Below, piece by piece: positions 1 to 16,152 of a stretch of DNA of 16,854 nucleotides. Within the stretch, counting starts at the first letter, position 1; each line of letters opens with the position of its first letter. Origin of the DNA: Planctomycetota bacterium (GTDB lineage: Bacteria > Planctomycetota > Planctomycetia > Pirellulales > Pirellulaceae); the NCBI GenBank assembly GCA_029259935.1, contig JAJDEH010000279.1, positions 1-16,854 of the forward strand, written 5' to 3'. The translations under genes and the position numbers were made by a program. A model generated the notes under the pieces. The model worked only from the letters and a program-made list of their open reading frames with translations, searched no databases and was not told the origin of the DNA.

Positions 1-428
1 GGCCCCACGCAACCGTGAATTTTCGCCAGTTGCCCGTCGTCCAACTGAACCCGCAGTCCCCCCAGCACTCCTTGGAAAATGACCAGGCCCAGGGCGGCTG
101 ACGTGACCCACCGCATCCAATCGCGCGAGTCACCGTGCCACACGGTCACCAGGAGTCCGATCGTGATCAATCCCACCGTCGCTCCCAACAAACGATGGCC
201 GTGCTCGATGAACAAGTCCCAAGGTCCCAGCAACCAAGTTTGCCACGGATATAAGAACAGGTTGTAACCATAGGTGCCCGGCCAATCGGGAACCGCCATG
301 CCCGCGTCATAGGTCGTCACTAAACTGCCCACCCAGATCAACGGAAACGTGGCGCACACCAACAGCACGGCCCAGCGGTGAGGCCACGGGCGGTACGCAC
401 TCGGTGTTGAATCCTGCGACTTACTCAA
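1..428 (-). CDS. ctaA: Haem A synthase (CtaA/COX15 family), N-terminal part, cut by window edge
   Basis: Converts haem O to haem A in the membrane, needed by the haem a/a3 oxidase encoded just upstream. The visible 142 codons show a short polar N-terminus, a first membrane segment (about residues 18-36), the family block VGSLVTTYDAGMAVPDWP (33-50), then EHGHR (75-79) and a second membrane segment followed by KIHG. E75 and H78 match the Glu-x2-His pair of the Bacillus enzyme, and H138 matches its second haem ligand; this is family knowledge applied to visible residues. No ATG fits. I chose TTG at 428 because it follows a GAGAG ribosome-binding sequence and lies 12 bases after the coxA stop; that same TGA is the nearest in-frame stop upstream. 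The C-terminal half lies outside the window. Family identity is very likely; the start is moderately sure. Confidence 0.9.
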   Translation of the reverse strand, partial: MSKSQDSTPSAYRPWPHRWAVLLVCATFPLIWVGSLVTTYDAGMAVPDWPGTYGYNLFLYPWQTWLLGPWDLFIEHGHRLLGATVGLITIGLLVTVWHGDSRDWMRWVTSAALGLVIFQGVLGGLRVQLDDGQLAKIHGCVG

Positions 429-440
429 GGTTCTCTCGGA

Positions 441-2228
441 TCATGCCGGTTCTGGGCCGGTTTTGGGCGGCGGCTGGATCTGCGGATAGAAATCGGTGTC
501 TACCTCGGGCGAGCCATATTCATACGGACCACGATAGACGACCGGTTGGAAATCAAAGTTGCCATGCCCGGGCGGGCTGGGAGCCATCCATTCCAACGAG
601 TTGGCACCCCACGGATTGCGGCCGACCGTGGGGCCAAAGAACATGCTCCAAATAAAGTTGCCGGCGAAGATAACCTGCGTGGCGACCATTCCGATGGCGC
701 AAATCGTCATGAACTGATTTAATGGCTGCAGGTGAGCAAACGTCGCGTAGTCGTAGGGATCGGCCAAGCGTCTGGGAAATCCGACCACGCCCAGTATGTG
801 CATGGTGTAAAACGTTCCGTTTAGAAAAATGAACGTCAGAAAAAAGTGCAGCCGGCCCCATGATTCGTTCATCATCCGGCCAAACATTTTGGGAAACCAA
901 AAATAAATCGCGCCGAACACCGCCATCGCGGTGCCGGAAAACAGCACGTAATGGAAATGCGCCACGATGAAGTAGGTATCGTGAATGAAAATGTCGGTCG
1001 GCGTGGCGGCCATGAAAATTCCCGACAAGCCGCCAATCACGAACATCGAGACAAACGACAAAGCAAACAGCATCGGCGTGGTGTATTGAATCCTGCCGCC
1101 CCAGATCGTCCCTAGCCAATTGAATGTTTTCACCGCGCTGGGCAGGGCAATCATCATGGTCGAGACCATGAACGTCATGCCCAGGATTGGGTTCATGCCC
1201 GATACGAACATATGGTGTCCCCACACGATGAATCCCAGCCCGGCGATTCCCGAGATGGCGTAGACCATCGGCTTGTAACCGAACAGCGGCTTACGGGCAA
1301 AGCAACTCATGATATCCGAGACCATGCCCATGGCTGGCAGAATCATGATGTACACGGCGGGATGGGAATAAAACCAAAACAGATGCTGCCACAACAGCGG
1401 TTGTCCGCCGCCACTGACGGGCATCGAGTTGTTCACCACCAGCGACTCGGGCAGGAAGAAGCCCGTTCCCAACACGCGATCGGTAAGTTGCATGAATCCG
1501 GCCGCGGTCAACACCGGCAGGGCAAACGCCTGCAGGATGGCGGTAATAAACATTGCCCAGATCGTCATTGGCAAGCGAAACATTGTCATGCCGGGCGCAC
1601 GCATCTGAATGATCGTCGTCATGTAGTTGACCGAGCCCAACATCGAGGACACACCGACAAAAGTGACTCCGATCAACCACATGTTCTGCGCCCAACCGCT
1701 GGCCGGCGCGGCTTCCCACACGGCGGACAACGGCGGATAAGACGTCCAACCCGATCCGGCTCCATTGCCGGGCATGAAAAAACTACTGCCGATGGAGATA
1801 AACGCCGGCCACATGAACCAATAGCTGAGCATGTTCAGCGTCGGAAACGCCATGTCGTCCGCGCCGATCATCAGTGGAATCAAGAAGTTGCCAAATGCAC
1901 CAGCCAGGATCGGAATGATCACGAAGAAGATCATGACCGTGGCGTGCATGGTGAACAGCATCGTGTAGAACTCGGGCGAAATCTGGCCGCCTTCGTTGGA
2001 AAATAACATCTGGCCGATTACGGGCATGTTTTGCCAGGGCCAAGCCAATTGCCAACGAATTCCCAGTGCCAGCAGTCCGCCAACCAGGAACCACAGCAGG
2101 GTGGAAAACAGAAACTGAATTCCAATGATTTTGTGATCGCGCGAAAAAATGTACTTCGAAATCCAACTTCCAAGGGGGCTCGCGCCCCCGTGGCCGTGCG
2201 GATCCGCGTGCGTGTCCGACGCGTTCAT
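441..2228 (-). CDS. coxA: Cytochrome c oxidase subunit I, A2-type haem-copper oxidase
   Basis: Catalytic subunit that reduces O2 at a haem a3-CuB centre and pumps protons; integral membrane protein of about 12 helices, 595 residues. Visible ligands: H95 and H426 (low-spin haem a), H424 (haem a3), H289/H338/H339 (CuB), and Y293 of HPAVY for the His-Tyr crosslink. K367 (PSAVKTFNW) matches the K-channel lysine and D125 the D-channel entry aspartate. The helix VI glutamate of A1 enzymes is absent: the motif is YSHPAVY (287-293), the signature of A2-type oxidases such as the Thermus and Rhodothermus caa3 enzymes. The ATG at 2228 lies one base past the coxB stop, with a GGAAGAGGA ribosome-binding sequence inside the coxB end, so translation is probably coupled. 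There is no fused subunit III; the C-terminus is a Pro-rich tail. Confidence 0.97.
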   Translation of the reverse strand: MNASDTHADPHGHGGASPLGSWISKYIFSRDHKIIGIQFLFSTLLWFLVGGLLALGIRWQLAWPWQNMPVIGQMLFSNEGGQISPEFYTMLFTMHATVMIFFVIIPILAGAFGNFLIPLMIGADDMAFPTLNMLSYWFMWPAFISIGSSFFMPGNGAGSGWTSYPPLSAVWEAAPASGWAQNMWLIGVTFVGVSSMLGSVNYMTTIIQMRAPGMTMFRLPMTIWAMFITAILQAFALPVLTAAGFMQLTDRVLGTGFFLPESLVVNNSMPVSGGGQPLLWQHLFWFYSHPAVYIMILPAMGMVSDIMSCFARKPLFGYKPMVYAISGIAGLGFIVWGHHMFVSGMNPILGMTFMVSTMMIALPSAVKTFNWLGTIWGGRIQYTTPMLFALSFVSMFVIGGLSGIFMAATPTDIFIHDTYFIVAHFHYVLFSGTAMAVFGAIYFWFPKMFGRMMNESWGRLHFFLTFIFLNGTFYTMHILGVVGFPRRLADPYDYATFAHLQPLNQFMTICAIGMVATQVIFAGNFIWSMFFGPTVGRNPWGANSLEWMAPSPPGHGNFDFQPVVYRGPYEYGSPEVDTDFYPQIQPPPKTGPEPA

Positions 2229-2229
2229 A

Positions 2230-3105
2230 CTAGTCCTCTTCCTCTGTACTCGGAGGCGAATAACTATCTTGCTCTTGTGCGTGATAGGTTTCGTTCAACC
2301 ATTGGTCGAACTCGCTCTGGTTTTTGTCGACGGTGATTTGGCCGCGCATCTTGTAGTGGCCCCATCCGCAAAGCTCCGCGCACACGATGTCATACACACC
2401 GGTCTGATTCGTCCGAAACCAGACGAACTGAGTCATTCCCGGAACGACATCTTGCTTGACACGCAGGTTAGGCAGAAAGAAACTGTGCAGCACATCTTGG
2501 CTTTCGATTTGAATGACGATCTCTTCGTCCTTCGGAACGTGCAAATCGTTAACCGTGAACACGTCGTCGTGGGTGAACAGCCGCTTATCCTTACCCGCGT
2601 ACCGGACGCGCCATTCAAACTGCCGTCCGGTGACCAGGGCCAACGGCGGCTTGGGCTCGTCGTCGGTCGTGCCGAGTACGCCGTCCGGCCCCGGTTCCAT
2701 GGGGCGGTTCAGCTTATGGTCGGCCCAGGCGTTCATTTGATAAACGGCAATAAACAGCAATGTCGCGGCGGGCAGAATCGACCACACCACTTCCAAGGTA
2801 TGGCTGCCGTGCGTGAACTTCACGGGCTCCTTCGTCCTTTCGACATCGTACTTCCACATGAACCAAAACAACGCGATGCCGGTGCCGATAAAAATGGCGC
2901 CGGTCAAATAGAAAATGCGAATGAACAGCAGGTCGATAATTTCGCCGTCGGGATTGATATTTTCGGGAAACCAATGGCCGCCCGGAAAGGGAAACGTATC
3001 GCCCGGCTTGCCATTGAAGGGCCATGTGTCGGCGGCGGCCGCGACAATGATCCACGTCCCGAGAATCGGAACCAGCAGAAAGAATAAGCTCCAAAACCGT
3101 CCCAC
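2230..3105 (-). CDS. coxB: Cytochrome c oxidase subunit II with CuA centre
   Basis: Accepts electrons from a c-type cytochrome or cupredoxin at the binuclear CuA site and passes them to subunit I. With the GTG start the protein has 291 residues: an N-terminal hydrophobic segment (about 4-25), two further membrane helices (about 57-84 and 104-124), then the periplasmic cupredoxin domain (from about 155). All CuA ligands are visible: H207, C242, E244, C246, H250 and M253. No CXXCH follows, so it is not a fused caa3 subunit II. I chose GTG at 3105 because GGAG lies 7 bases upstream. A TTG at 3153 would add 16 Arg-rich residues but has no ribosome-binding site. It lies 54 bases after the diheme cytochrome gene and one base before coxA. 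A Gly/Asp-rich loop at 138-150 is an insertion of unknown role. Confidence 0.95.
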   Translation of the reverse strand: MGRFWSLFFLLVPILGTWIIVAAAADTWPFNGKPGDTFPFPGGHWFPENINPDGEIIDLLFIRIFYLTGAIFIGTGIALFWFMWKYDVERTKEPVKFTHGSHTLEVVWSILPAATLLFIAVYQMNAWADHKLNRPMEPGPDGVLGTTDDEPKPPLALVTGRQFEWRVRYAGKDKRLFTHDDVFTVNDLHVPKDEEIVIQIESQDVLHSFFLPNLRVKQDVVPGMTQFVWFRTNQTGVYDIVCAELCGWGHYKMRGQITVDKNQSEFDQWLNETYHAQEQDSYSPPSTEEED

Positions 3106-3159
3106 AGTTACTCTCCAAGTCGTTTTCCGCCGTCGCGCTCGACGCGCCGGCAAGGCCGT

Positions 3160-4476
3160 CTAGCGAACTTCTTTTTTATTCTCGCGCGTATGTTCCGGCC
3201 GGCTGATCGGCTCGAAAGGCAGCGATTGAACATACGTGATCACTTGCCATATTTCCTCATCGGTGATCTTTTCGGCGGGCTGGGCCGGCATGCCGCTGCC
3301 GTTGATGCCGTTGCGAACTCGCCAATACAAATCGACCGGTCGTCGGCCGCCGCGAAAAACGCCTTGCCGCAGATTACGCGGACGGACTTCCCGCGGTTCA
3401 TGCGCGCCGCGCGCCATGTACTCATCCACCAACGGCTGATCCCAGGGTCCTTTCGCGGTGTACCACTCGGTCGTCCACGAGTCATACAATTTCTCGCCAC
3501 CATCGCCTATCGCCGAATAACCATGGCACTTGATGCAGTCCAACTTTCCGTAGAACAGGGCCTTACCCGCCACAATCGCCTCTTGGACCTTCTCGGGATC
3601 GTAGGACGGCGAGTCGCGCCGCAACTGTTGTGGACGCTCGGGCACTTCGGTGACCACGAATTCAGGCTGATTCCAACGCTTTAGTTTGTCTTCGACGATC
3701 TCTCGAATGGCCGCCAGATTCTCGGCATAGGTGCTTGCCGGATCACCTTGTTGATTGAAGTCCAGCAGCTTTTCGCCGGGCTCCAGTTCTTCATACATAC
3801 GGTCCATCAACGACCTTTCTACCTCGCCGCGAATGCCTAGGTAGCGAACATAATGGACCAGCGATTCAAGTTCCGGTTCGGACAGCAGGCGGAACGACGG
3901 CATGGCCGTGCCCGAAATCCCATTGACCAGCGTCTTCTTCAAGTCCGCATGGGTCGGGCGATGGCCGCCCGGTGTCGATTTAAACTTGAAGTCGCCTTTG
4001 CGAAAGTCGCGAGGATAAGGATTCAGAAAGGAGCCCGTCGGACCGGCACCGTTGCCAGTGATACCGTGACAGTGGACGCAGTGTTCGCGATACAGTCCGC
4101 GAGGGTTGCCATCCTCATCGCTTCCCACGGGACCGGCCGCCATGCGAAGAAGCGAAAGGCTCACCAAACTGGACGATTCGAAAGTGACTTCTCCGCCTGA
4201 ACCGTCCGACCGTTCGGGAGTGTACTTGACGCTTTGTTGCGGGAAAAACGGATCGTCCGGCGTCCCAAAAGTACCCACCAAGATGTCACCGACATTCTCG
4301 ATTTGATCCTTGGAGTAAGGTTCGTCCTGCTCTCGTTCCGACCGGCGTAGATATACCGAGTTGAGCGAAAAGGTCGCTTCGGGCGAGCAGCCCGCCGCGG
4401 CCAGCATGCCGGCACACAAGCAGCAGGCTTTGACGAGCCATAAGTTGAACGAGCGTTGGTTGATCCGCTGTAACAT
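3160..4476 (-). CDS. Diheme cytochrome c lipoprotein, probable electron donor to the oxidase
   Basis: Two class I cytochrome c domains in a predicted outer-face lipoprotein of 438 residues. The signal peptide is hydrophobic and ends in LAAAGC with the lipid cysteine at C30. Haem 1 is CVHCH (133-137) with likely Met ligand M192 (AMPSF); haem 2 is CIKCH (314-318) with likely Met ligand M396 (GSGMP). A charged helical linker joins the domains (about 215-300). The gene sits directly before coxB, as detached donors do when subunit II lacks its own haem c; the donor role is inference. I chose ATG at 4476 because GGAAG lies 9 bases upstream and the signal peptide then starts normally. A GTG at 4506 would add 10 residues without a ribosome-binding site. 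Cysteines at 18, 19 and 21 inside the signal are unusual. Confidence 0.9.
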   Translation of the reverse strand: MLQRINQRSFNLWLVKACCLCAGMLAAAGCSPEATFSLNSVYLRRSEREQDEPYSKDQIENVGDILVGTFGTPDDPFFPQQSVKYTPERSDGSGGEVTFESSSLVSLSLLRMAAGPVGSDEDGNPRGLYREHCVHCHGITGNGAGPTGSFLNPYPRDFRKGDFKFKSTPGGHRPTHADLKKTLVNGISGTAMPSFRLLSEPELESLVHYVRYLGIRGEVERSLMDRMYEELEPGEKLLDFNQQGDPASTYAENLAAIREIVEDKLKRWNQPEFVVTEVPERPQQLRRDSPSYDPEKVQEAIVAGKALFYGKLDCIKCHGYSAIGDGGEKLYDSWTTEWYTAKGPWDQPLVDEYMARGAHEPREVRPRNLRQGVFRGGRRPVDLYWRVRNGINGSGMPAQPAEKITDEEIWQVITYVQSLPFEPISRPEHTRENKKEVR

Positions 4477-4549
4477 CAAACGTTTCTTCCCGAATCTGCA
4501 ATCCACGGAGGCTATCCAAACACTTCACGCTGGCCTATTAAAAGGCGAA

Positions 4550-5551
4550 TTAATTAAATGACGACGAACTGAATTCGAGATTCCACGTGGCCGATTTGCC
4601 CATTTCGTCGCCTTCTAGCTGTTGCTTGAAGCGGCCCTTCCTGAGCTTCAGGTCCGCGCCATTCAGCTTCACCGTATCGCTGACAAATCCGGCCTTCTCT
4701 TGCCAAAGACGAAATTCAAGTTCAACTCCAGCGGGCACATGAGGAATCTCAAAGGCTCCGTTTTCGTCCGTGACCGCGAAATAGGGATTGTCGCGAACGA
4801 TCATCTTGGCCGTCATCCAAGGATGCACGTTACAGGACACGGAAATCGGCGAGTCCTCCTGTGCGGTCGGCTGATAGATCAACGAACTATTGGCGGAGAT
4901 CGAGGTACTATCCTTTTTGCCGCGCTTCGCATCGATATTCGTGTTATGCAGGGTGTTGTCGCTGTTGATGATGTTCATGCGTTGGTCGGTTCGCATGGCA
5001 AAAACGTGAGACAAGAAAATGCACCGCTTTTGATCGAAGTCGACTTGTGGCTTTTGCTGATCGATGGTGGCCGTATATTCGCCGGCCGCGATCCGATTGA
5101 AACTGTACGAAGGATGCACCCAGACCGGCGTCTCCTCATCGAAATCCACAGGTAAAGATGAGTTGAGGTAAATCAATACATTCTTGATTCCGCCGTTGCT
5201 TGCATTAACTTCGATAGCCTCGTTGGGTGCCGAAGTACCGCAAATCTGCGTCTCTTTGGACACAGGAATTGCCGACAATGTCGCTACGGCGCTGGCAGTC
5301 GGATCATCGACCTTGATGACACCCTTGATACTCGTCCATTGGGGCGTGCGATTGGTGCTATCGAACACTTCACCAGGACCGGCAACGGCACCACCACCGC
5401 TCCCCTTGAATGCTGCACGTACCACATCGGCGTTCTTCTGACTGTAGGACAAAGTCGCCGCATCGCCGGGCCCGCAACCGAGATTGGCCACCGCGGACAA
5501 GCCAAGCAACAACACCAAGGCAATACGATGCCAGCCGATCCGTTGGATCAT
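4550..5551 (-). CDS. Amicyanin-like cupredoxin with C-terminal Ig-like domain, putative lipoprotein (second of a tandem pair)
   Basis: Likely periplasmic blue-copper protein of 333 residues. The N-terminus is a signal peptide with a cysteine at C26 (VANLGC), a non-standard but possible lipobox. After a Gly/Ala-rich stretch, residues about 70-255 form a beta-rich domain with a type-1 copper ligand set: H202 (TLHN), then C240, H243 and M246 in CNVHPWM. The C-x2-H-x2-M spacing is that of amicyanin. Residues about 253-290 (DENGAFEIPHVPAG) resemble a carboxypeptidase-regulatory/Ig-like fold. C104 and C177 are matched in the upstream paralogue. I chose ATG at 5551, with GAGGTG 5 bases upstream; an ATG at 5581 would add 10 polar residues and has no close ribosome-binding site. 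An electron-carrier role between the cytochrome b complex and the oxidase is inference. It could instead be a copper chaperone or structural protein. Confidence 0.8.
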   Translation of the reverse strand: MIQRIGWHRIALVLLLGLSAVANLGCGPGDAATLSYSQKNADVVRAAFKGSGGGAVAGPGEVFDSTNRTPQWTSIKGVIKVDDPTASAVATLSAIPVSKETQICGTSAPNEAIEVNASNGGIKNVLIYLNSSLPVDFDEETPVWVHPSYSFNRIAAGEYTATIDQQKPQVDFDQKRCIFLSHVFAMRTDQRMNIINSDNTLHNTNIDAKRGKKDSTSISANSSLIYQPTAQEDSPISVSCNVHPWMTAKMIVRDNPYFAVTDENGAFEIPHVPAGVELEFRLWQEKAGFVSDTVKLNGADLKLRKGRFKQQLEGDEMGKSATWNLEFSSSSFN

Positions 5552-5636
5552 CCTTTCACCTCGCTGCTCGTCAATTCCCATAATTTACTTCGCTTAACCT
5601 TTGACGTCGCGTCTGTAACCTTGTGGTGATAAGTAA

Positions 5637-5665
5637 GCGAGCGGCGACGAAACCTCGCCGCTCGC
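5637..5665 (-). terminator. Strong GC-rich hairpin between the two cupredoxin genes
   Basis: A perfect 11-bp inverted repeat (GCGAGCGGCGA and its complement) with a 7-base loop lies 47 bases past the stop of the upstream cupredoxin gene. On the minus strand it is followed by TTACTTATC, a poor U-tract. It could be a partial or leaky intrinsic terminator, or an mRNA-end stabiliser that sets unequal expression within the operon. The palindrome is certain; termination is not. Confidence 0.5.
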
Positions 5666-5673
5666 CACATGTC

Positions 5674-5711
5674 GTTCAATTTTCGTCGTTCAATTACTCT
5701 GGTGTTCAATT
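5674..5711 (-). repeat. Three copies of an 8-base direct repeat beside the hairpin
   Basis: On the plus strand GTTCAATT occurs at 5674, 5688 and 5704 (starts 14 and 16 bases apart), and the first two copies share the longer GTCGTTCAATT. The last copy ends one base before the stop codon of the upstream cupredoxin gene. It may be a small tandem duplication or a protein/RNA binding site; no known family is recognised. Confidence 0.4.
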
Positions 5712-5712
5712 T

Positions 5713-6507
5713 TTACTTTTTGTTAAACAACGTGGGAGCGACAACAATGTCGCCCAGATCGGTCGTTTGGCCGCCTTTGATCGTGAACGTCGTGCGTCCG
5801 GCGCGCCAACGTGTTTTTTTGCCTTTGTATTTAATGTCCTGCACGTAACCCGCTTCGTGCCAGAATTGAAACGTGTGCTCGCCCGCGGGCAAGTTCTTGA
5901 TGGTGAATTCGCCGTTGGCATCGGAAATCGACGCATACGGATGGTCACGCACGATGACGAAGGCATTCATCCACGGATGAATGCTGCAACTGACCGTGGC
6001 GGCATGCTGTTCGGGCACCTTAAACTGATGATCGATTTTCTTCTTGGCGGGTAAAAGCGGATTGATTGAGCCGTTGTTGAACGCATCAATCTTGGTGTTG
6101 TGCCCGACGTCGTCCGAGTTCTTAACTTCCAACGTTTGCGAATTGCGAACGAACACCACCCTCGGTGCAAAGGCGCAGCCTTTGTTGTCCAGCACGACTT
6201 TTGCTTCCGCGTCCATTTCGTAAGACGGATGCGCCGCGGGAGCCTTTTCGCCTCTTCGATAATTGATATAGAGATTCGCCAGGACGTTCTTAATGCCGCC
6301 CTTTTCACCGACGACCAACGTTTCGCTGAGCGGCTTGAACTTGCCACAGTAGGCCTTGTCGGCGGAAAGGGTCAATTCCGTCTGAGCGGGTGCTTCGCCG
6401 TCGTAGACGAAACGCCCCGTTAGATTACCCCACTCCGCAGCCGTTAGCACGTTGCAGAATAGCGCGGACAAGAGAACGCAACTAAAGAGAATTGTCAGTT
6501 TTCGCAT
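5713..6507 (-). CDS. Amicyanin-like cupredoxin with C-terminal Ig-like domain (first of a tandem pair)
   Basis: Secreted protein of 264 residues: a signal peptide (about 1-23, ending LTAAEW) and a beta-rich cupredoxin domain (about 28-190) with a full type-1 copper ligand set, H136 (DVGHN), C174, H177 and M180 (CSIHPWM). The C-x2-H-x2-M spacing is that of amicyanin. Residues about 190-225 (SISDANGEFTIKNLPAGEH) match a carboxypeptidase-regulatory-like motif. C54 and C111 could form a disulfide and have equivalents in the downstream paralogue, which also shares GGIKNV and the H-P-S-Y motif. The ATG at 6507 has AAGGAG 9 bases upstream. Such proteins are often annotated as hypothetical or methylamine-utilisation-like. 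The copper site is read from the sequence; electron transfer to the diheme cytochrome or CuA is inference from gene order. Confidence 0.82.
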   Translation of the reverse strand: MRKLTILFSCVLLSALFCNVLTAAEWGNLTGRFVYDGEAPAQTELTLSADKAYCGKFKPLSETLVVGEKGGIKNVLANLYINYRRGEKAPAAHPSYEMDAEAKVVLDNKGCAFAPRVVFVRNSQTLEVKNSDDVGHNTKIDAFNNGSINPLLPAKKKIDHQFKVPEQHAATVSCSIHPWMNAFVIVRDHPYASISDANGEFTIKNLPAGEHTFQFWHEAGYVQDIKYKGKKTRWRAGRTTFTIKGGQTTDLGDIVVAPTLFNKK

Positions 6508-6746
6508 GTTTCACTTCTCCTTCACCAGCTCAACAACCAGTCCATGGTGGTTACTGGATCGACTAGGACAGGCCTGGGCTGCTTGCCCAGACCAACGGTG
6601 GAGGGTCATGCCGCCGACTCATACGAATCGACGTCACGATCAAGCGGCCCACACACGCGGCCCGCAACAGGGGGGTAACGTATTATACCCGCCTCAACCC
6701 ATTTCACCATTGTCCGAATAATACACGGCGATGAAACTCCAATTCA
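6508..6746 (-). other. 239-bp leader upstream of the cupredoxin genes
   Basis: No gene is seen here. It is the longest gap inside the respiratory train and may carry its own control elements. Inverted repeats include CTGGGC/GCCCAG (6574-6590, 5-base loop), and two overlapping, mutually exclusive ones near the start codon: AACCA/TGGTT (6535-6552) and CCAGT/ACTGG (6537-6557). None is followed by a convincing U-tract on the minus strand. A -10-like TATAAT on the minus strand is listed separately. Confidence 0.4.
6682..6687 (-). promoter_or_regulatory. Candidate -10 box for an internal promoter of the cupredoxin/oxidase part
   Basis: The minus strand reads GGGTATAATACG, a perfect TATAAT about 175 bases upstream of the first cupredoxin. 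It lies inside the inverted repeat GGGTA-N8-TACCC (6673-6690). The -35 region at the usual spacing is poor (ATGGTG), so it would need an activator or an alternative sigma contact. Suggestive only. Confidence 0.3.
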
Positions 6747-9700
6747 TCACTCCGTTGAACTTTCTCCTCCATTTGATTCGCCTCCGGCCGCCGCATCCGT
6801 CGCGCCACCGGCCGGCACCAAATCGCTCACCGAATTGCGGTCCACCGAATACTCATCAAAGTTCATCAATAGGTCGACTAGTGCGTCGACCTGCTGCACA
6901 CTGGTTCCGTGAAACAACTCCTGACGAACACCACCCAAATGAGGTGCATTGGGGTCGTATTTGATGTTTTCCGGCATCGCCGTATAGGGCAGCAATTGCA
7001 CCGGACGGGCAATCCAGCGCCGCATATATCCCGGCCGTAACCGTTTGTAAACTTGCGACAGGTCCGGCGCTTTCGCGCGATCGGAACCCGGCTTCTCGTA
7101 GTCGCCGACGCGATGGCAAGCCACGCAGCCGTCTTTGTTCGTGATCATCGTCATCGCCGCGTCGAATCGCGACGTTTCAGGCAGGCCTTCTTCGCGCAGT
7201 CGCTGTCGGTACTGTTGATCCGCTTGGTCTAGATGGGCCGACCGCCGCCGTCCGGTAAATTCATAGGGGAATTGGACGTTGTCCACCGCGGCGAAGTAAT
7301 TAACGATCTTGGTCGCTTCTTCGGGCGACATGTTGAACTTCGGCATCCGCAGCAGGACCGCGGGACGAATAGCGTGCGGATCGAGCAGGAAGTCATGCAA
7401 CCAATCGGTTTGCACCTTGCGTCCTTGACCAACGAGCGGTGGCGGCAGCCAGGCCCAAGCTTCCTTGCCTTTGGCACCGGGATTGACCTGCTTCTCGCGT
7501 CGTAGTGCGCGCGGCAACATGTACTTAGGCAGAAAGCCACCATCGGTCGGAAAACGTTTGCGAATCATGTCAGCACGCACCCGCAGACTTTGCGTGCCGA
7601 CCTGTCGGGCCTTGCCATTCAAGGCCAGGGGTTCAAATATCTCAAAGTACAAGTCCACATTTTGTGGATCGTACACATCGCCTTCAAACAACTCGTCGCC
7701 GGCGTCATCTTCCATCGCCGGTAACCCGTCTTCATTGGTCAAACCGGGCAAGCCAACCAACCGGGCTTGCAGCTTACCCTGCCGATTCGGCACAGCCGAA
7801 TCAAGCAGTTGTTCGGGCGTGAATTTTTCGACCATGAAAGGAAAAGTCGTCGTCGCGGGCGGGCTGCCAAAGTAACCATCGCCGGGCGAAAACTCGATAT
7901 CCCACTTTTCAAACTCCAGCATGTGGCAACCGCCGCAGTTGTATTTCTGCAATACTTGGCGGCCCTCGATGATCGCCCGCTGCCGCTCGTCCGGCTGATA
8001 GATAAACTTATTGGCCGGCGGATCCGCCACCAAACCGAGTACGAACGTTGCCACCGCTTCGCGTTCGACGTCGTTGAACGGGAACCGCGGCATGCGGAGC
8101 CGCTCGTTATAGCCTTTGTTATCCACTTCGTGATAATCGTAACTACGCGGCTCGACCAACTTTTGAAAGATGAATCCGGCGCGGTGCCCCATGTTCAAGG
8201 CATCCAGATAGAAGCCCTTATCTTGTTCGTCGAACATGCCTTCCCGGTCTTCCTCGGCATGGTCCGCTTCATGGCCGTGATCGTCACCATGTGCTTCGCC
8301 TTCATCCTGAAAGTGGGTGCCGTGTCCATGGCTACTATGTTTTTTGTCGTGCAAGAAATTGACGATGTGATTGAAGGCCAGCTTGGAAGGATCCTTGCGT
8401 CCCCAGTCAGCCAATCCGGTTCCAATCGGCTTGGCCGCCTCGAAACCGGGGATGTCATGACAACCATAGCAACCATATTTCCCGATCGACTTACGGCCCA
8501 AATACAGCAGCTTCTTGGTCGTATCGACATTGCCGCCCACCATTTCAATTTCAGCGCCCTTCAACTCGCCGCGCAACGTTTCGGGAATACCTTCGTCCCG
8601 ATAGTTTTCCGCGTCGCGTGGGAAGCTCTCCGCCAGGTTTTTCGTGACCAACTCGTCGATGGTCGCGAGCGAATCCTCACTCAAACTCTCCGCCGACAGC
8701 GTGCCGTCGGCCGGCTTCCAATCCGAAGTCGACTCGGCCAACAGGAACTCGACAATATCCGCCACCGGATCGGTGACCGCCGTCACGTTACCCGTGGCAT
8801 CTTTTTGCTGCACGGGATCAAGCAGCATGTTCGGCATCACGGTTCGAGCGTGATAGTTGCTCGGATTTCGGATCCAACCGTACAGCCAATTGCGTCCTTT
8901 TTCACCGCCGAACTTGGCGGCAACGCCGGAAAGATCCGGACCTTGTACAATTTCCGTTGGATCGCGGAAAGGCACCGCGTCTTCAAAGGCCTTGTGATTG
9001 TGGCAGGTCAGGCAGCGTTCGAACTCGACGCGGCCACGTTCGACGCGTTCTTCGGGCGTCGATTCGCTGATACCTTCTGGTGGTTGTGCATATTCAAACG
9101 GCTGGCTTCGCTCTAACAAAAACGTCGTGATCGCCAGAATCTCGATCGGCTCATATCGCTCCGCCAACTCCCGGCTTTCACCGTGAAGATGCTGCCACAG
9201 CCCAAAGAACCGGGGCATCCGCGTCGACTCGCGAAAATGCTTCGGATTACGAATCCAATCGTACAAGAATGGCTCATCCAACTTGTGAGAAACGTAGCGC
9301 AAGCTGGGACCGCTCCTACGCAGCGTTCCCGGCGTTTCCACATCCGCCAACAACTCCTCCACGCCATTTGATCCGTCCGGCAGCGCTGAGGCATCAAGCC
9401 GCGCGTCGGCGGCCAGCAATTGCAATAGCCGATGCCGCACTTCGTTATTCGCCGGCTGAGCGACCAGATCTTGCGATAGTGCGTCGAGTTCTTCTAGCGA
9501 ACCGATGCGCGTCTGAAACGGACGAGCCCGGGCAAGCACTGGCGCAATTTCCTCTTGAATGACGGCCAACTGCTTGTCGATTTCCGCGATGCGTGCATCG
9601 ATTTGCTGAATCTGATCTTGCGGTATGTTTTGTGAATCGGCCGATAACTCGGCCTTCTTCGCCTCAAGGCTGGCTTTCTCGCCGGCCAAGGGAGTCCGCC

Positions 9701-12266
9701 GCTTTTCGATCGGCAGCAACTCGGTGCGAATCGGCGCGAAGCCCGCTTCGGCCTTCGTCAATTGCACGGCAATCTGGGCCCTTAGGTCTTGGGCCGCGGC
9801 GAAGTAATTCGGCTCGGGCCGCAGGTCGGGACCAACCCGTTCATCACCATCGTAGCCGTTGACTTCATGGCAACCGAAACAGCCGTACTTGCGAATCAAA
9901 TTATGTCCGCGCGTCACCTTCGGAGCAGGAGCTTCCGCGAACCGCTGGCTGGGCTCTAGTTCGGTCACATCGTGGTGACACTTCAGACAGCTACTTTCCG
10001 CATGCCTGGTCGGATACATCGGAAAGATCCAGTGATGGTTATCAAACCAACCATTGTCATGCCGCCAATCCTTCCGCTGACTCGGAGTGTTGGGGGTATG
10101 CGACGCCCACTTGAACGCCGTGGCACTCCCTTGGCCCTCGTGGCACATTGTGCAGGCAAAATCGGCCACCTTGTGGGGGCTGAGCGAGCCGACAAACAAA
10201 TCCAATCGTGGATGCGTCACGTACGGGTCGGGCAGTCCGCGCCGCACCACCAGTCTCACTGGTTCGCCCCAATCCGTCCGTCCCGTCAGCAGCAATCGAA
10301 TGGCATCACCACGATTGCGAACCCGATCGCCGTCAACTTCGACGATCACGTCGCCCGCCATCAAACCTGGCTGCGACGTGTCGCCTTCAATATCCGTTGC
10401 GGCCTTCATCAAGCTCTTCCTTAGCTCATAACCCTCGACCTCTTGCGGTTCGCCCGTGACAATCGCGGCCTGGGCACCGAGGGAACTGACGGCATCCTCG
10501 CCCTGGCCCACCAACAGCAGTGCTGACTCGTCCGACCCAGGCTTCACGATTTCCACGCTGACAAAAGCAGCCGAGCCCAGCGTGGACGAACGCAGACGAA
10601 TCAACGACTTACCGTCGCCTGTCTTGACGTCAGTCGCCACAATACCCGCCTTCTCCGCAATCTTGCCGAGCGCCTCGACGATTTCCGCCGGTGATTGGCT
10701 GCCGGAGAATGAAATCTCATCTTGCCCGACATCGGTTCGCAGACGAAGCCGAATTTCGCCCTCGGCTGGAATCGAATCCGATTTAATATCGACCTTGGCC
10801 GGATGGGCCTGCCGGTCACTGGAATAAGGCTGCACGAAACTGACCGTGGCGTCATCGCGGCCTATCAAATAGTCGCCCTGCTCGGCCAACTGGATACCGT
10901 AAACTTGCATTAGCGTGGGCAAGGGCCCGTCGCCATCTTCCGGTGTTGGCGACTTTTCCGGGGACTGCAAAATGAAATTGAGTTCCCGTTCGCTGACGTA
11001 GGCAGGATCGACGGCGGAACCTGGCATCGTACGTTCCATCGCCTGATGACATGTCGTGCACCGATCAAACCGTCGCACGCGGCTAAAGTTGTAATCGATG
11101 GTATTGTCGTTGTCCCATTTGTTGTCGATCGTCAAGGGCGAATTAAAAGCATCCAAAATCGGCAACTCAAGCCACTTCTTGCCTAGGAAAGGAAAGCTGC
11201 CCACAAAATAAGTCGATCGCCGTTCGACGTGCGCCGCCTTCAGCCGCACTAGATCCGCTTCATTTTCCTTGATCGACTTTTCGACCGCGCTAGTGCCTGC
11301 CGTCATTTGGTCAATAATTCGCTGCAAATCCTTGCGATGACCGGCCGCGTCCTCCTCCATCTCCGTCAGTTTGTTCAAGCCAAACTTCTTCAAACCGCCG
11401 ACTTCGTTCTCGACCAGTTCGTCAATTTCCGCCTGAAGTTTCCCCAGGCGAGCCTCATCGTCTTTATTTCCCGCCTCGGCATCGCGGGCGACGATCCCAA
11501 GAGCACCCTTAGCGGCGTCCACGGCCGCCGACTTCGACTTTCGATATCGTTGGACCAACTCTTCGCGAAAGCGGGCTGCCTCCACAATAGACTGCAACTT
11601 CTCAACTAGCCGATCGCGAGTCGCCGCCGCCGTCGCTTCGGCATCCGTCGCCTGCTGCTCGGCATCTTGAGCCGCCGCCAGTGCCTCGGCGGCCGCCTGC
11701 GTCAACGCTGTGGATTTTTCGTTCTTGCTTGTCGAATCCGCTTGCGCCAGTGCCCGATCCGTCGCGGCGGAGATCGCTTCCTGCGCCGTTTTCGCGGCAA
11801 TGCCGGCCTGCGCGGAATCGACCGCCGCCAGATTCGCCTGAGCTCGCAATGCTCCCGCCTTCGACCGTGACTCGGCCGCGACCGCCGACTCTTCGCTCAG
11901 TTGCTTGGCCAAATCGTCAATTCCGCCGAAGTCGTACACATCCAGTTCGCGGGACTTCGCTTCCCGATTGACCTCGGCCTTGAACGAATCCAGCAATGCC
12001 CCATCAATCGCGGCGCTCTTGGCCGTTAGCAATTCGGCATACAACGAAGCATGCTCCGCCTCGGCCCGATCGGTTTCGAACTGAATCTTCTGCCAGTTGT
12101 TCATCAGCAGTTCGATCTGCCGAAAATCTCGCTGGTAGCCTTTCCACTCGCGCCAGTGGTCGGCCAAGAACATCCACACCGTGGAGCCTAGCAACACGGC
12201 ACTTGAGACCGCAAAGATGCGGTGCATCAGTTTCTGATCGCGCCAAGTTTGTTCCGTCGCGGGCAT
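6747..12266 (-). CDS. Giant membrane-anchored octahaem cytochrome c with coiled coils and PDZ domain
   Basis: A 1839-residue protein with eight CXXCH motifs, at residues 403 (CTTCH), 705 (CTMCH), 760 (CLKCH), 796 (CFGCH), 1085 (CLTCH), 1266 (CYGCH), 1444 (CGGCH) and 1714 (CVACH). Order: one N-terminal membrane anchor (about 14-35); a long Ala/Glu/Lys-rich coiled coil (about 40-345); haem 1; a beta-rich segment resembling flagellin-IN (503-575); a PDZ-like domain (610-677, core GLMAGDVIVEVDGDRV); haems 2 and 3; then five class I cytochrome modules, each CXXCH followed downstream by a Met-Pro ligand motif (such as TRMPRFF, TVMPNM, LRMPRF, LRMPKF, TAMPEN). A second coiled coil (823-925) interrupts the haem 4 module and a His-rich stretch (1306-1336) the haem 6 module. 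The ATG has CGGAG upstream. Its place after the cytochrome b genes suggests it replaces cytochrome c1/f and wires the complex to its acceptors; that role is inference. Confidence 0.93.
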   Translation of the reverse strand: MPATEQTWRDQKLMHRIFAVSSAVLLGSTVWMFLADHWREWKGYQRDFRQIELLMNNWQKIQFETDRAEAEHASLYAELLTAKSAAIDGALLDSFKAEVNREAKSRELDVYDFGGIDDLAKQLSEESAVAAESRSKAGALRAQANLAAVDSAQAGIAAKTAQEAISAATDRALAQADSTSKNEKSTALTQAAAEALAAAQDAEQQATDAEATAAATRDRLVEKLQSIVEAARFREELVQRYRKSKSAAVDAAKGALGIVARDAEAGNKDDEARLGKLQAEIDELVENEVGGLKKFGLNKLTEMEEDAAGHRKDLQRIIDQMTAGTSAVEKSIKENEADLVRLKAAHVERRSTYFVGSFPFLGKKWLELPILDAFNSPLTIDNKWDNDNTIDYNFSRVRRFDRCTTCHQAMERTMPGSAVDPAYVSERELNFILQSPEKSPTPEDGDGPLPTLMQVYGIQLAEQGDYLIGRDDATVSFVQPYSSDRQAHPAKVDIKSDSIPAEGEIRLRLRTDVGQDEISFSGSQSPAEIVEALGKIAEKAGIVATDVKTGDGKSLIRLRSSTLGSAAFVSVEIVKPGSDESALLLVGQGEDAVSSLGAQAAIVTGEPQEVEGYELRKSLMKAATDIEGDTSQPGLMAGDVIVEVDGDRVRNRGDAIRLLLTGRTDWGEPVRLVVRRGLPDPYVTHPRLDLFVGSLSPHKVADFACTMCHEGQGSATAFKWASHTPNTPSQRKDWRHDNGWFDNHHWIFPMYPTRHAESSCLKCHHDVTELEPSQRFAEAPAPKVTRGHNLIRKYGCFGCHEVNGYDGDERVGPDLRPEPNYFAAAQDLRAQIAVQLTKAEAGFAPIRTELLPIEKRRTPLAGEKASLEAKKAELSADSQNIPQDQIQQIDARIAEIDKQLAVIQEEIAPVLARARPFQTRIGSLEELDALSQDLVAQPANNEVRHRLLQLLAADARLDASALPDGSNGVEELLADVETPGTLRRSGPSLRYVSHKLDEPFLYDWIRNPKHFRESTRMPRFFGLWQHLHGESRELAERYEPIEILAITTFLLERSQPFEYAQPPEGISESTPEERVERGRVEFERCLTCHNHKAFEDAVPFRDPTEIVQGPDLSGVAAKFGGEKGRNWLYGWIRNPSNYHARTVMPNMLLDPVQQKDATGNVTAVTDPVADIVEFLLAESTSDWKPADGTLSAESLSEDSLATIDELVTKNLAESFPRDAENYRDEGIPETLRGELKGAEIEMVGGNVDTTKKLLYLGRKSIGKYGCYGCHDIPGFEAAKPIGTGLADWGRKDPSKLAFNHIVNFLHDKKHSSHGHGTHFQDEGEAHGDDHGHEADHAEEDREGMFDEQDKGFYLDALNMGHRAGFIFQKLVEPRSYDYHEVDNKGYNERLRMPRFPFNDVEREAVATFVLGLVADPPANKFIYQPDERQRAIIEGRQVLQKYNCGGCHMLEFEKWDIEFSPGDGYFGSPPATTTFPFMVEKFTPEQLLDSAVPNRQGKLQARLVGLPGLTNEDGLPAMEDDAGDELFEGDVYDPQNVDLYFEIFEPLALNGKARQVGTQSLRVRADMIRKRFPTDGGFLPKYMLPRALRREKQVNPGAKGKEAWAWLPPPLVGQGRKVQTDWLHDFLLDPHAIRPAVLLRMPKFNMSPEEATKIVNYFAAVDNVQFPYEFTGRRRSAHLDQADQQYRQRLREEGLPETSRFDAAMTMITNKDGCVACHRVGDYEKPGSDRAKAPDLSQVYKRLRPGYMRRWIARPVQLLPYTAMPENIKYDPNAPHLGGVRQELFHGTSVQQVDALVDLLMNFDEYSVDRNSVSDLVPAGGATDAAAGGESNGGESSTE

Positions 12267-12343
12267 GCTGATTAACTCCGCGCCACTTCTTTCAATTGAG
12301 TCAAATTAAGCCACGAGCCAAAACCGCTTGGCCCGCCGCTCGA

Positions 12344-13726
12344 CTAAAAATTTAAAAAATACTCAGGAATTGCCACGAAGTACTTCATCTGAAACATCCA
12401 GCGAGTCACCATCTTGATCGGCAACAAGGCCATGAACAGCAACAGATTGGTCATCACCATGAAGCGAATGAAGCCCATGCGAATGAACATCTTGCGGAAG
12501 TACTTGCTGATCAACACCATCGCCGGAGGCACAGCGATGAAATACGCCAACAGAAGCACAATCCCCAGCCATTCCCGATAGATGATGAACATCAACTGCC
12601 CGAACAGATCCGAGCCCTCCGGCACCTTCGGGCGCCCCATCTCCATCCAGTAAACCCAAAAGTACTCCGAAAGATCCACGTTATTCAGTGCTTCAACTTT
12701 GTGGACATCCCAGGTCTCATAGAAACCAAAAAAGTTCCAATTCGGACCGCGCAAAAACGTCCCCATGACGATCAAGGTGACCCACAGCACTAGAAAGCCG
12801 AATTGGAAAATCAAATAAGCAAACTTACGCTGGTCGATTGTGTAGTAGCCGCTACCTTCTTTGTTGAAGTCCAGGTAGGGAATCGCCATTAAGCCCACGA
12901 CGACCAGACTGGGAAGCACGACGCCGGCCATCCACGGATCGTAATAGACCAGCATCTCTTGCAAGCCCAAAAAGTACCACGGGGCCTTGGATGGATTCGG
13001 CGTCTTCACGGAACTGGCCGGCTCTTCCAGCGGAGCCTGCAGCCCAATCCCCCACAGCAACAACAATGCCGTGAGGGCGATCATGCAAATCAATTCGGTG
13101 TAAACCAAGTCGGGCCACACGAGGACCTTTTCGTCGTCTTCTTTTTCCAGCGGCCCCTCACCACGCCGCAACCGCTCGTCGTTCTCCACCGCCTTATACG
13201 CGCCCAGCCAGGTAAAGAACCCCAGCAAAAACACCATGCCCACGATCGGCACGTTGTCCGCCTTGGTGACAATCGAGGCGAAGTCCGGATCGATGATGGA
13301 ATAGCCCATCAGCAACAAGGACAAATTCAACATGGCCCACGCCACGAACGGCTTGACGAAGAACTTGCGAAACCAAAACATCACCGCCAGAACCACGAAA
13401 GAACCGACACTGTAAACGGTCGGCCCCATGATGCTGTCGAATGCATTGCGGCAGCCCTGCGGAATTGAAATCAACTGCATTAACACCGGCGAACCGCTCA
13501 TCGCCAGCGGGGAGATGATCGTGAAAAAGACCGACGCCACCAGCCAGAAATGGGCCGTCGTGAAGGGCAGTCCCGATCCGGGCAGCGAAAACATGACTTT
13601 CGCACGGCCAGACTTCCACAAATAGAACGCGGCGACCCCGTTCATCGTGGCCAGCAGCAGGTAGTAGGCCCCAAGGAAGCCCGCAATGCTGCTGAGAAAT
13701 TGATTTATGTCAACATGTCCGTGCAT
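12344..13726 (-). CDS. Cytochrome b C-terminal (subunit IV-like) protein with N-terminal membrane extension
   Basis: Second cytochrome b subunit, 460 residues, far longer than the roughly 160 residues of subunit IV. The core related to subunit IV/cytochrome b C-terminus starts near residue 200 (WPDLVYTELI) and carries KAPWYFLGLQEM (247-258), the counterpart of the Qo-site PEWY motif; the glutamate position is a proline here. Before it lie about 185 residues with about five membrane helices (roughly 11-37, 58-76, 105-120, 127-145, 159-178); after it come further helices at about 265-285, 303-325, 385-405 and 423-442. A charged cytoplasmic-type loop (181-200) joins the two parts. Cytochrome b and this gene are 28 bases apart. 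It should form the quinol-oxidising site with the b6-like subunit. The ATG lacks an obvious ribosome-binding site. Confidence 0.87.
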   Translation of the reverse strand: MHGHVDINQFLSSIAGFLGAYYLLLATMNGVAAFYLWKSGRAKVMFSLPGSGLPFTTAHFWLVASVFFTIISPLAMSGSPVLMQLISIPQGCRNAFDSIMGPTVYSVGSFVVLAVMFWFRKFFVKPFVAWAMLNLSLLLMGYSIIDPDFASIVTKADNVPIVGMVFLLGFFTWLGAYKAVENDERLRRGEGPLEKEDDEKVLVWPDLVYTELICMIALTALLLLWGIGLQAPLEEPASSVKTPNPSKAPWYFLGLQEMLVYYDPWMAGVVLPSLVVVGLMAIPYLDFNKEGSGYYTIDQRKFAYLIFQFGFLVLWVTLIVMGTFLRGPNWNFFGFYETWDVHKVEALNNVDLSEYFWVYWMEMGRPKVPEGSDLFGQLMFIIYREWLGIVLLLAYFIAVPPAMVLISKYFRKMFIRMGFIRFMVMTNLLLFMALLPIKMVTRWMFQMKYFVAIPEYFLNF

Positions 13727-13754
13727 GACTATATGAGCAACTCGCTGATTTCAA

Positions 13755-14531
13755 CTACAAAGGTCCGCTAATGCCGCCGTCTTTTCGCACACGCCAAAAA
13801 TGAATCGCGATCAGCAAGGCGGCCGCCAAGGGAATGGCGATACAGTGCAAAATATAAAACCGATTCAAGGTTTCCTCGCCCACGAAGCGCGCACCTAGCA
13901 ATCCAAAGCGCGCATCGGAGGCGTTAGTAATCATCGCCACGCCGTCGACCGTCAATAATTGCTGGCCCGGCCCTTCATATCCCAGGATCGGTGTCGCCCG
14001 GGCCATGTTCGAACCGACCGTGATGGCCCAAATCGCCAACTGATCCCAGGGAAGCAAGTATCCCGTAAATGAGAGCAACAAAGTTAACAGCAACAGGACG
14101 ACCCCAATCACCCAATTAAACTCGCGCGGCGGCTTGTAGCTGCCCGTCAAGAACACGCGGTACATATGCAACCAGACGGTAATCACCATCGCATGCGCGG
14201 CCCAACGGTGTATTTCGCGCAGAATCCCCAGCGAAGTTACATCACGCAGCGCTAAGATATCGTTGTAGGCCCATTCCAACGTGGGCCGGTAATAGAACAT
14301 CAACAGAACGCCAGTGATCGTCTCCACCAGAAATAGGAAAAAAGTAACGCCGCCCATGCACCAGGTGAAACTGAGCGAGATCCCCTGCTTTTTTATCGAG
14401 ACGGGATGCAGATGCAGGAAGAAGTTCGTCAGCATCACCACGATGCGATTACGGCGGTCCGTCGGAGCCGGATGCCGGATGATACTCTTCCAAATCTGGG
14501 AATTTCGAATTACTTCGCCTAGGTTCGGCAT
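13755..14531 (-). CDS. petB: Cytochrome b6-type subunit of the Rieske/cytochrome b complex
   Basis: Binds the two b haems of the quinol:acceptor oxidoreductase. It has 258 residues and four core helices. H108 and H122 (14 apart) and H229 and H244 (15 apart) are the haem ligand pairs; the 14/15 spacing is that of cytochrome b6 rather than mitochondrial-type cytochrome b (14/14). The protein ends in GGISGPL, almost the b6 C-terminus. C58 in [10 protein letters not shown] aligns with Cys35 of b6, which binds the extra haem c(i)/c(n) near the Qi site. YRP (81-83) and GYLLPWDQ (157-164) are further family blocks. It lies 75 bases after the Rieske gene. An unusual polar N-terminus of about 35 residues precedes the first conserved block. 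Identity is clear; haem c(i) attachment is inferred from one cysteine and family knowledge. Confidence 0.95.
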
Positions 14532-14606
14532 GATTTCTTATTCAGTAGACTTTCACGATTCTAAAATGCGGCCAAAGGGCCAGCTTCACACGGGAGCGAA
14601 CGCCGA

Positions 14607-15719: not shown

Positions 15720-15810
15720 TATCCATCCAAGAGACGGGGCTCTAGAGCCTTCCAGGGCGGCAAAGGCACTATGTGGATAGGTTGTGAAAATGCTAAAACA
15801 GTTGCCAAGT

Positions 15811-15826
15811 AACGACTTATGTCGTT
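15811..15826. promoter_or_regulatory. Palindrome AACGAC-TTAT-GTCGTT in the Rieske leader
   Basis: Perfect 6-bp arms around a 4-base centre, located about 90 bases upstream of the Rieske start and about 30 bases downstream of the candidate -10. It could be an operator or a small mRNA hairpin. On the plus strand it is followed by a T-rich run (TTTAGGTTTTTGTCTT), so it could also stop plus-strand transcription, although no plus-strand gene ends here. Confidence 0.3.
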
Positions 15827-15856
15827 TAGGTTTTTGTCTTAAGAAAGCTCACAGAT

Positions 15857-15884
15857 TTTGTAGTCCAAGGCCGATTCTTGTCAA
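15857..15884 (-). promoter_or_regulatory. Candidate sigma70-type promoter of the respiratory gene train
   Basis: On the minus strand a perfect TTGACA (15884-15879) is followed after 16 bases by TACAAA (15862-15857), which matches 4 of 6 positions of TATAAT. Transcription would start near 15850 and give a leader of about 130 bases before the Rieske ATG. This is the best promoter match seen in the 433-bp gap and is correctly placed and oriented, but sigma70-like matches also occur by chance. Confidence 0.45.
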
Positions 15885-16152
15885 CCACCCTCGTCCCAAC
15901 CCTTGCTGCGGCCTTTTGTCGCATATTGCCAAGCAGACTCGCACTAAGTTTTGACCATATTTTGCCGATCGGCTGCCCACGGTCAACCGCCGACTTTTCG
16001 CTTGTGGTGTTTATTTGTAACAACGACTCCCGGACGCTCGGCGACTCCGTTGGGTCAACATATCGAGGGTTGAGACTTTCTATGTCGAGGTGACTTTTCT
16101 AGAATTCACTCTCCACACCTACTGGCCGCCGCCACACAACGGATTTTCTCCC

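Follow-up and report, generated by a model that had tools for sequence, protein, structure and literature searches.

A giant octahaem cytochrome c in a planctomycete operon as the probable c-type subunit of a b6-type Rieske/cytochrome b complex

Cytochromes c1 and f are monohaem. In an operon of a Planctomycetota bacterium (Pirellulaceae), the place where either would be expected is taken by a c-type cytochrome of 1839 residues, raising the question of what so large a protein does there. The operon lies on a stretch of 16,854 nucleotides, which we refer to as the window (GenBank assembly GCA_029259935.1, contig JAJDEH010000279.1, positions 1 to 16,854). The first-pass annotation of this DNA placed the gene directly after two cytochrome b genes, saw no other c1/f-like gene, and suggested that the protein may be an electron wire and scaffold that joins a quinol oxidase to a terminal oxidase. 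We consider it quite probable that the octahaem serves as c-type subunit in a b6-type Rieske/cytochrome b complex predicted here from its genes, in which it stands in for c1 or f and moves electrons from the Rieske protein towards CuA. The basis for this replacement is haem count, gene linkage, co-occurrence, homology to the octahaem of an anammox-type locus (L082), and an invariant ligand set.

A split cytochrome b, made up of a b6-type protein and a subunit IV-like protein (SUIV), is encoded together with a Rieske protein in one operon, which places the complex in the b6f-like branch. The presumed haem ci cysteine of that branch is present as well: its motif is TWC58MGG in the window protein, and related loci carry TWCMGG. 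SUIV begins with about 190 additional residues (1-190) that form a hydrophobic region. The operon continues through two cupredoxin-like proteins and a dihaem cytochrome to oxidase genes (Table 1), and in three relatives (L016, L005, and L039) ORFs that look like CtaB, CoxC, and CoxD come next.

Table 1. Features of the operon and of the giant octahaem, in window positions.
Feature	Positions	Strand	Basis or reading
Rieske protein, 370 aa	14607..15719	(-)	motifs CTHLGC/CPCHG; long N-terminal extension before membrane helix
Cytochrome b6-type protein, 258 aa	13755..14531	(-)	His pairs 108/122 and 229/244, by their spacing presumed b-haem ligands; Cys58, presumed haem ci (cn) anchor after b6f; H40 of HLHP
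Subunit IV-like protein (SUIV), 460 aa	12344..13726	(-)	Cytochrom_B_C at residues 236-316; APWY at the presumed place of PEWY in canonical complexes
Giant octahaem c-type cytochrome, 1839 aa	6747..12266	(-)	ORF with ATG start at 12266
N-terminal membrane anchor, residues 17-35	12162..12218	(-)	sole hydrophobic segment of giant
Long-helix region, residues 40-348	11223..12149	(-)	structure prediction
Haem 1 CTTCH, residue 403	11046..11060	(-)	distal ligand one of H685/H698/H723
PDZ-like region, residues 455-680	10227..10904	(-)	weak profile match and conserved motif
Insert in PDZ-like region, residues 481-580	10527..10826	(-)	gap fraction 0.96-0.98 among 120 aligned relatives
Haem 2 CTMCH, residue 705	10140..10154	(-)	CXXCH
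Haem 3 CLKCH, residue 760	9975..9989	(-)	CXXCH
Haem 4 CFGCH, residue 796	9867..9881	(-)	probable distal Met1017
Second helical hairpin, inserted in haem-4 domain, residues 821-936	9459..9806	(-)	alignment and structure model
Haem 5 CLTCH, residue 1085	9000..9014	(-)	probable distal Met1144
Haem 6 CYGCH, residue 1266	8457..8471	(-)	probable distal Met1392
Haem 7 CGGCH, residue 1444	7923..7937	(-)	probable distal Met1641
Haem 8 CVACH, residue 1714	7113..7127	(-)	probable distal Met1764
Secreted cupredoxin-like protein, 264 aa	5713..6507	(-)	motif CSIHPWM, which we take to be a copper motif
Cupredoxin-like lipoprotein, 343 aa	4550..5581	(-)	motif CNVHPWM; lipoprotein and copper motif both presumed
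Dihaem c-type cytochrome, 448 aa, probable lipoprotein	3160..4506	(-)	lipobox read by eye; two CBB3/class-I domains
CoxB	2230..3153	(-)	motif CAELCGWGHYKM, presumably the CuA motif
CoxA	441..2228	(-)	PF00115, 2.3e-150
CtaA-like haem A synthase, cut by window end	3..428	(-)	ORF; presumed identity

The haem motifs are not there by chance. Ten were counted in the DNA of the window (eight in the giant gene, two in the dihaem gene) against 1.13 expected, none of 200 shuffles of the window reached that number (maximum, 8), and 2000 shuffles of the giant protein gave a mean of 0.003 CXXCH and at most one. All 16 cysteines of the giant are haem cysteines. The ORF, the motif counts, and the hydrophobic segment agree with the first-pass claim of eight CXXCH motifs in one membrane-anchored chain of 1839 residues, and the N-terminal sequence MPATEQTWR is well conserved among homologues.

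Structure prediction gave helices at residues 40-84, 114-167, and 171-262, with others up to 348, at pLDDT values mostly of 77-98; the model of residues 1-830 is poor near haems 1-4, with many stretches below 50. The Pfam PDZ profile matched a sub-region of the giant weakly (E 7.5e-5, 23.4 bits, Pfam cut-off 27), and the G-L-x-x-G-D motif of the PDZ-like region is conserved across the family. Single haem domains of the giant also fell below the Pfam cut-off, with better scores among relatives. A PDB sequence search with the giant found no match at E 0.1, Foldseek found no PDB match at E 0.001 or better for either of the two giant models, and a plasmid search found no match. Foldseek gave weak FliD-like matches with the model of the N-terminal half and coiled-coil noise with the second model, and neither was used. 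Within the PDZ-like region, the insert of about 100 residues is nearly unique among 120 relatives and matches no Pfam family; for the whole model, the structural matches were weak and FliD-like.

Our homologue search scored 7987 candidates and found 1935 homologues, and each of the 120 that were listed contains exactly eight CXXCH motifs; a pseudogene or assembly artefact was dropped from consideration on this count. A scan of named genomes was seeded with the giant alone, so that linkage to cytochrome b was not built in, and yielded 48 loci. These are planctomycete wherever a title names a group (L002 and L003 are titled only “bacterium”). The titles of relatives read Pirellulales, Pirellulaceae, Planctomycetaceae, and similar, and we refer to these proteins as the Pirellulales type. 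Carriers among the named genomes include Adhaeretor mobilis, Bythopirellula polymerisocia, and Lacipirellula limnantheis. An eight-haem ORF is present in 38 of the 48 loci; contig ends truncate nine of the rest, and in the tenth (L009) the frame is broken. SUIV precedes the giant in 44 loci, the other four contigs beginning inside the giant gene, and a cupredoxin follows it in 39, the other nine contigs ending in the giant or just past it. CoxB was found in 34 loci and CoxA in 33, with the remainder at contig ends, and a CtaA homologue in 30, the other 18 contigs stopping before its position. As far as the contigs reach, the order Rieske-b6-SUIV-octahaem-cupredoxin-cupredoxin-dihaem-CoxB-CoxA-CtaA is kept across all 48.

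Co-occurrence with b6 was assessed in two further samples. Of 25 genomes from one relative's family, 14 carry the window b6 at an identity of at least 85%, and the giant was searched for in 16 of the 25 (five of the 14 b6-positive genomes and all 11 b6-negative ones). It is present in all five of the former and none of the latter (Fisher p 2.3e-4), each time at a single place on a contig shared with b6. In an even draw across the phylum, 24 of 59 genomes carry b6 at an identity of at least 56%, in 25 loci. In 23 of these 24 genomes the b6 locus also contains an octahaem homologue, either complete or truncated where the contig or the fetched region stops; in the remaining one (G075) the contig ends in SUIV. 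The octahaem is thus the constant c subunit across the phylum-draw loci. Three of the 23 depart from the position immediately downstream of SUIV: the octahaem gene lies about 9.5 kb away on the opposite strand in L075, upstream in L078, and 8.5 kb downstream in L081. Linkage to the b6, SUIV, and Rieske genes is far beyond chance, which upholds the c1/f position claimed in the first-pass annotation, and, contig ends aside, the gene was found with cytochrome b both in the 48 close loci and in the phylum draw.

The genes downstream of the octahaem are less constant. With tblastn, CoxA or CoxB was found in the fetched region of 12 of the 24 phylum-draw genomes; in the other 12, several of whose contigs end early, Cox genes were not found in that region, so delivery to a co-encoded oxidase is not general. 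A homologue of the 264-aa cupredoxin was found with tblastn in 17 of the 25 loci, against a dihaem relative of at least 200 aa in only three (L016, L068, and L074, with a short match in L075). The cupredoxin is thus the commoner partner and the likelier general exit carrier. The same counts make it unlikely that the dihaem cytochrome is the true c1 equivalent, with the octahaem an accessory wire or electron store. The dihaem protein does share the operon, has two CBB3/class-I domains, and is encoded in 34 of the 48 close loci, the other 14 contigs stopping before its position. However, its scarcity across the phylum stands against an octahaem in 23 of 24 genomes, and its gene sits after the octahaem and beside CoxB, as expected of an oxidase-side carrier.

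The closest characterised relatives of the complex are found in anammox bacteria. The best PDB match of the window Rieske protein was 9rk3 (150 bits), with 9rk4 at 74 bits; these entries are Kustd1480 and Kuste4569, respectively (PMC12954380). One phylum-draw genome (G078), presumably that of an anammox bacterium, encodes a complex of each kind. Its locus L082 encodes a Rieske protein (101/117 identical to Kustd1480), b6, a 568-aa FAD/4Fe-4S oxidoreductase, SUIV, and a 953-aa octahaem. Its locus L083 encodes a Rieske protein (91/110 identical to Kuste4569), a 363-aa hexahaem, and a 587-aa octahaem, the latter taken to be the counterpart of the HAO-like Kuste4574. In blastp, the giant aligns with the L082 octahaem in three pieces (1.8e-27, 3.2e-20, and 1.2e-17), along with weaker crosswise matches between class-I domains, and neither multihaem protein of L083 matches it at 1e-3. 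Judged by these alignments, the giant is an enlarged relative of the octahaem in the Kustd1480-1485 complex of Kuenenia stuttgartiensis. An HAO-like octahaem enzyme was dropped as a candidate, given the lack of a match at 1e-3 to the 587-aa protein and five invariant methionines outside CXXCH.

The L082 counterpart shares with the window a b6 with HLHP, SUIV, and a homologous octahaem that has the same eight invariant ligands and a long stretch ahead of haem 1; in these comparisons the L082 protein stands in for the multihaem subunit Kustd1485. In contrast to the Kustd1480-1485 type, the window has no NAD(P) oxidoreductase, and cupredoxins, dihaem c, and an oxidase follow instead; its octahaem is about twice as long and has a PDZ-like region, and its SUIV bears the extra N-terminal region. 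The Kuste4569-4574 complex likewise has b6, SUIV, and Rieske subunits and a multihaem c where f would be, and differs in the hexahaem and octahaem of its L083 counterpart.

Ligands were compared in an alignment of 24 octahaems, comprising 18 locus proteins with exactly eight CXXCH and more than 900 aa and six of the 120 listed homologues. Outside it are the truncated L064, L073, L077, L081, and L085, the 816-aa octahaem of L062, and L075, L078, and L090, three proteins not recovered in full as single ORFs. The eight CXXCH motifs are in register in all 24, a haem count that owes something to the selection of eight-haem proteins. Apart from CXXCH and the start methionine, the invariant histidines and methionines number exactly three (685, 698, and 723) and five (1017, 1144, 1392, 1641, and 1764), and these, unlike the haem count, are not a product of row selection. 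This set fits one distal ligand per haem, with a tentative assignment to individual haems, and the ligand order fits bis-His haems 1-3 and class-I-like His/Met domains for haems 4-8. Given the linkage, the homology to the anammox type, and one ligand per haem, replacement of c1/f is the likeliest role of the giant, with electrons passing from Rieske towards the CuA oxidase.

A path through such a complex can be proposed. One N-terminal helix would anchor the octahaem in the membrane, and the long-helix arm would probably wrap the complex and the Rieske head; the long coil is probably a clamp on the complex. Haems 1-3 would form a bis-histidine module, followed by five His/Met class-I-like domains in a row (haems 4-8). 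The Rieske cluster would oxidise (mena)quinol and then reduce a haem of the N-terminal module, and the electron would run along the haem chain and exit to CuA of the co-encoded aa3-type oxidase, either directly or via the cupredoxins and, here, the dihaem c. The second electron would reach the quinone-reduction site by way of the b haems and haem ci, as it does in b6f. By gene order, the complex and an O2-consuming oxidase share one operon here, unlike in the anammox relatives, and a wire to the oxidase is the likeliest use of the giant. The first-pass reading is partly supported: the giant occupies the c1/f place, and oxidase genes come after it in the 48 close loci up to the contig ends. The PDZ-like domain varies between lineages, and the underlying idea is not new. 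The least probable alternative is that the octahaem sends electrons outwards, by extracellular or outer-membrane transfer: its size, eight haems, PDZ, and weak MtrC/MtrF-type profile matches would suit this, but the N-terminal anchor is conserved in the family, no outer-membrane partner was recognised in the window, and Cox genes come after the giant in close loci.

A new haem b has been proposed for the anammox complexes at the interface of the two cytochrome b monomers; His62 (Kustd1481) or His43 (Kuste4571) would hold it, and it would relay electrons towards NAD(P) (PMC12954380). The first histidine of HLHP is residue 62 in L082 and 43 in L083, where R266/K267 and R247 fit too, and in the window b6 the corresponding residue is H40. 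This histidine is present in all 38 b6 N-termini read among the first 48 loci and in all 22 later ones (one as HFHP), the b6 proteins of L085-L091 lying outside the scan pattern; two further pattern matches (L021 and L027) are wrong-frame noise. On the strength of this conservation, and with Kustd1480-1485 as the closest characterised relative, electron bifurcation to NAD(P)H, which has been proposed for the anammox relatives, might also operate here, with the octahaem as the high-potential exit. We find this improbable. The window contains no NAD(P) oxidoreductase gene, and 28 bases separate b6 and SUIV where the anammox-type operon has the 568-aa oxidoreductase; b6 and SUIV matches are adjacent in the close loci as well, and the operon leads into an oxidase instead. 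The interface histidine is therefore kept without an NAD(P) oxidoreductase between b6 and SUIV, so either the haem or the histidine would serve something else.

Returning to the octahaem as a c1/f replacement, a more speculative extension, which we hold only tentatively, is that it makes one wired quinol:O2 supercomplex without a free carrier. Rieske would reduce the bis-His module, the five-domain class-I chain would reach CuA, and the interface haem b would be present too. If so, the interface haem would be a general means of electron exchange between cytochrome b monomers and not an NAD(P)H device. The anammox Rieske proteins have potentials above +300 mV, and the need for so many c haems in these complexes is described as not entirely clear (PMC12954380). 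Both the large number of c haems and the proposed interface haem b are open puzzles of the anammox complexes, and oxidase-linked homologues without an adjacent NAD(P) module let the complex's own traits be separated from anammox traits.

The absence of another c1/f-like gene, as claimed in the first-pass annotation, is true of the operon and of c1 and f proper but not of whole genomes. No cytochrome c1 (PF02167) was found in seven related genomes, with Caulobacter positive among 14 control genomes, and no cytochrome f (PF01333) over the cut-off in the same seven, with Synechococcus and, unexpectedly, Thermotoga positive among the controls. Two weak cytochrome f matches in the related genomes are frames of 1467 and 1489 aa on other contigs, and the giant itself matches neither profile. 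The complex shares the Rieske protein and haem b pairs with canonical bc1 and b6f, and the haem ci cysteine with b6f, and differs in having no c1 or f member over the cut-off in these genomes. All seven genomes nevertheless encode another c1-like domain, a dihaem c in one chain with a second cytochrome b (615-759 aa), with an adjoining Rieske ORF recognised in six. Two different Rieske/b complexes are thereby encoded side by side in the seven genomes checked.

Other multihaem proteins occur beside cytochrome b genes in these lineages. A third Rieske/b complex in B. polymerisocia (L060; G002 contig 9, 4131-7502) consists of a Rieske protein, a 371-aa cytochrome b, and a 561-aa octahaem. This set may represent an octahaem nitrite reductase together with a dedicated Rieske/b donor, an arrangement reported for Nitrospirales (PMC12342949). 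In L062 (3906-7878), L063 (4667-7953), and L093 (3975-7825), a b6-like protein of 518-529 aa is long enough to include SUIV, and the neighbouring proteins with eight, seven, and nine haems (816, 576, and 769 aa, respectively) are partly similar to haems 2-4 of the giant. The matches of the 816-aa protein to the giant are weaker than those of the L082 octahaem (best, 4.9e-12). A search for shorter relatives with the haem 2-4 region gave 177 matches; among the 120 listed, those named by organism are planctomycete or plain “bacterium,” and many are marked partial.

Multiple Rieske/b complexes were reportedly reviewed by ten Brink and others in 2013. In the actinobacterial bcc-aa3 supercomplex, the dihaem c subunit QcrC links complex III with an aa3 oxidase and no free carrier takes part; no relation between it and the giant was seen in profile searches. 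The idea of an octahaem in place of c1 is not new, as a b6-type operon with an atypical octahaem as its only c subunit was reported in 2013 for Nitrospina, Kuenenia, and Methylomirabilis (PMC3578206). By its description, that operon in Nitrospina gracilis, Kuenenia, and Methylomirabilis oxyfera resembles ours in split cytochrome b, Rieske, and octahaem, and the passages that describe it make no mention of Cox linkage or PDZ. Literature searches of open-licence PMC papers found no earlier description of the Pirellulales form. So far as these searches show, the new elements are the Cox-linked planctomycete form, the ligand set, a PDZ that varies by lineage, and retention of the proposed interface-haem histidine with no NAD(P) module encoded alongside.

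The octahaem appears to have been enlarged differently among lineages. Haem 1 lies at residues 304-405 in the Pirellulales-type proteins compared and at 242-268 in 14 of 17 multihaem homologues outside this type (L068-L091, the 587-aa protein of L083 apart), the other three having it at 313-421; the helix arm thus tends to be longer in the Pirellulales type. In the Pirellulales type, L065 included, haems 1 and 2 flank the PDZ-like domain. In L068, the next closest by b6, a PDZ domain (E 3.2e-9, above the Pfam cut-off) lies between haems 5 and 6, at residues 658-743 of its octahaem (6239-10402), and none was found in 11 other octahaems at the limits used. The differing positions suggest two separate PDZ insertions, and a domain so variable between lineages is not needed for the core function.

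Alignments to the window SUIV start at its residue 57-151 for other planctomycete SUIVs and only at 185-190 for anammox-type ones, as if the N-terminal region had grown stepwise. The N-terminal 190 residues of the Rieske protein carry a repeated 11-residue motif like MSVEEMLAAAR, which is probably cytoplasmic given its location before the membrane helix. A strict pattern of this type occurs in one to three copies in 35 of 38 Rieske ORFs from the first 48 loci, and in one copy in four of 34 from later loci.
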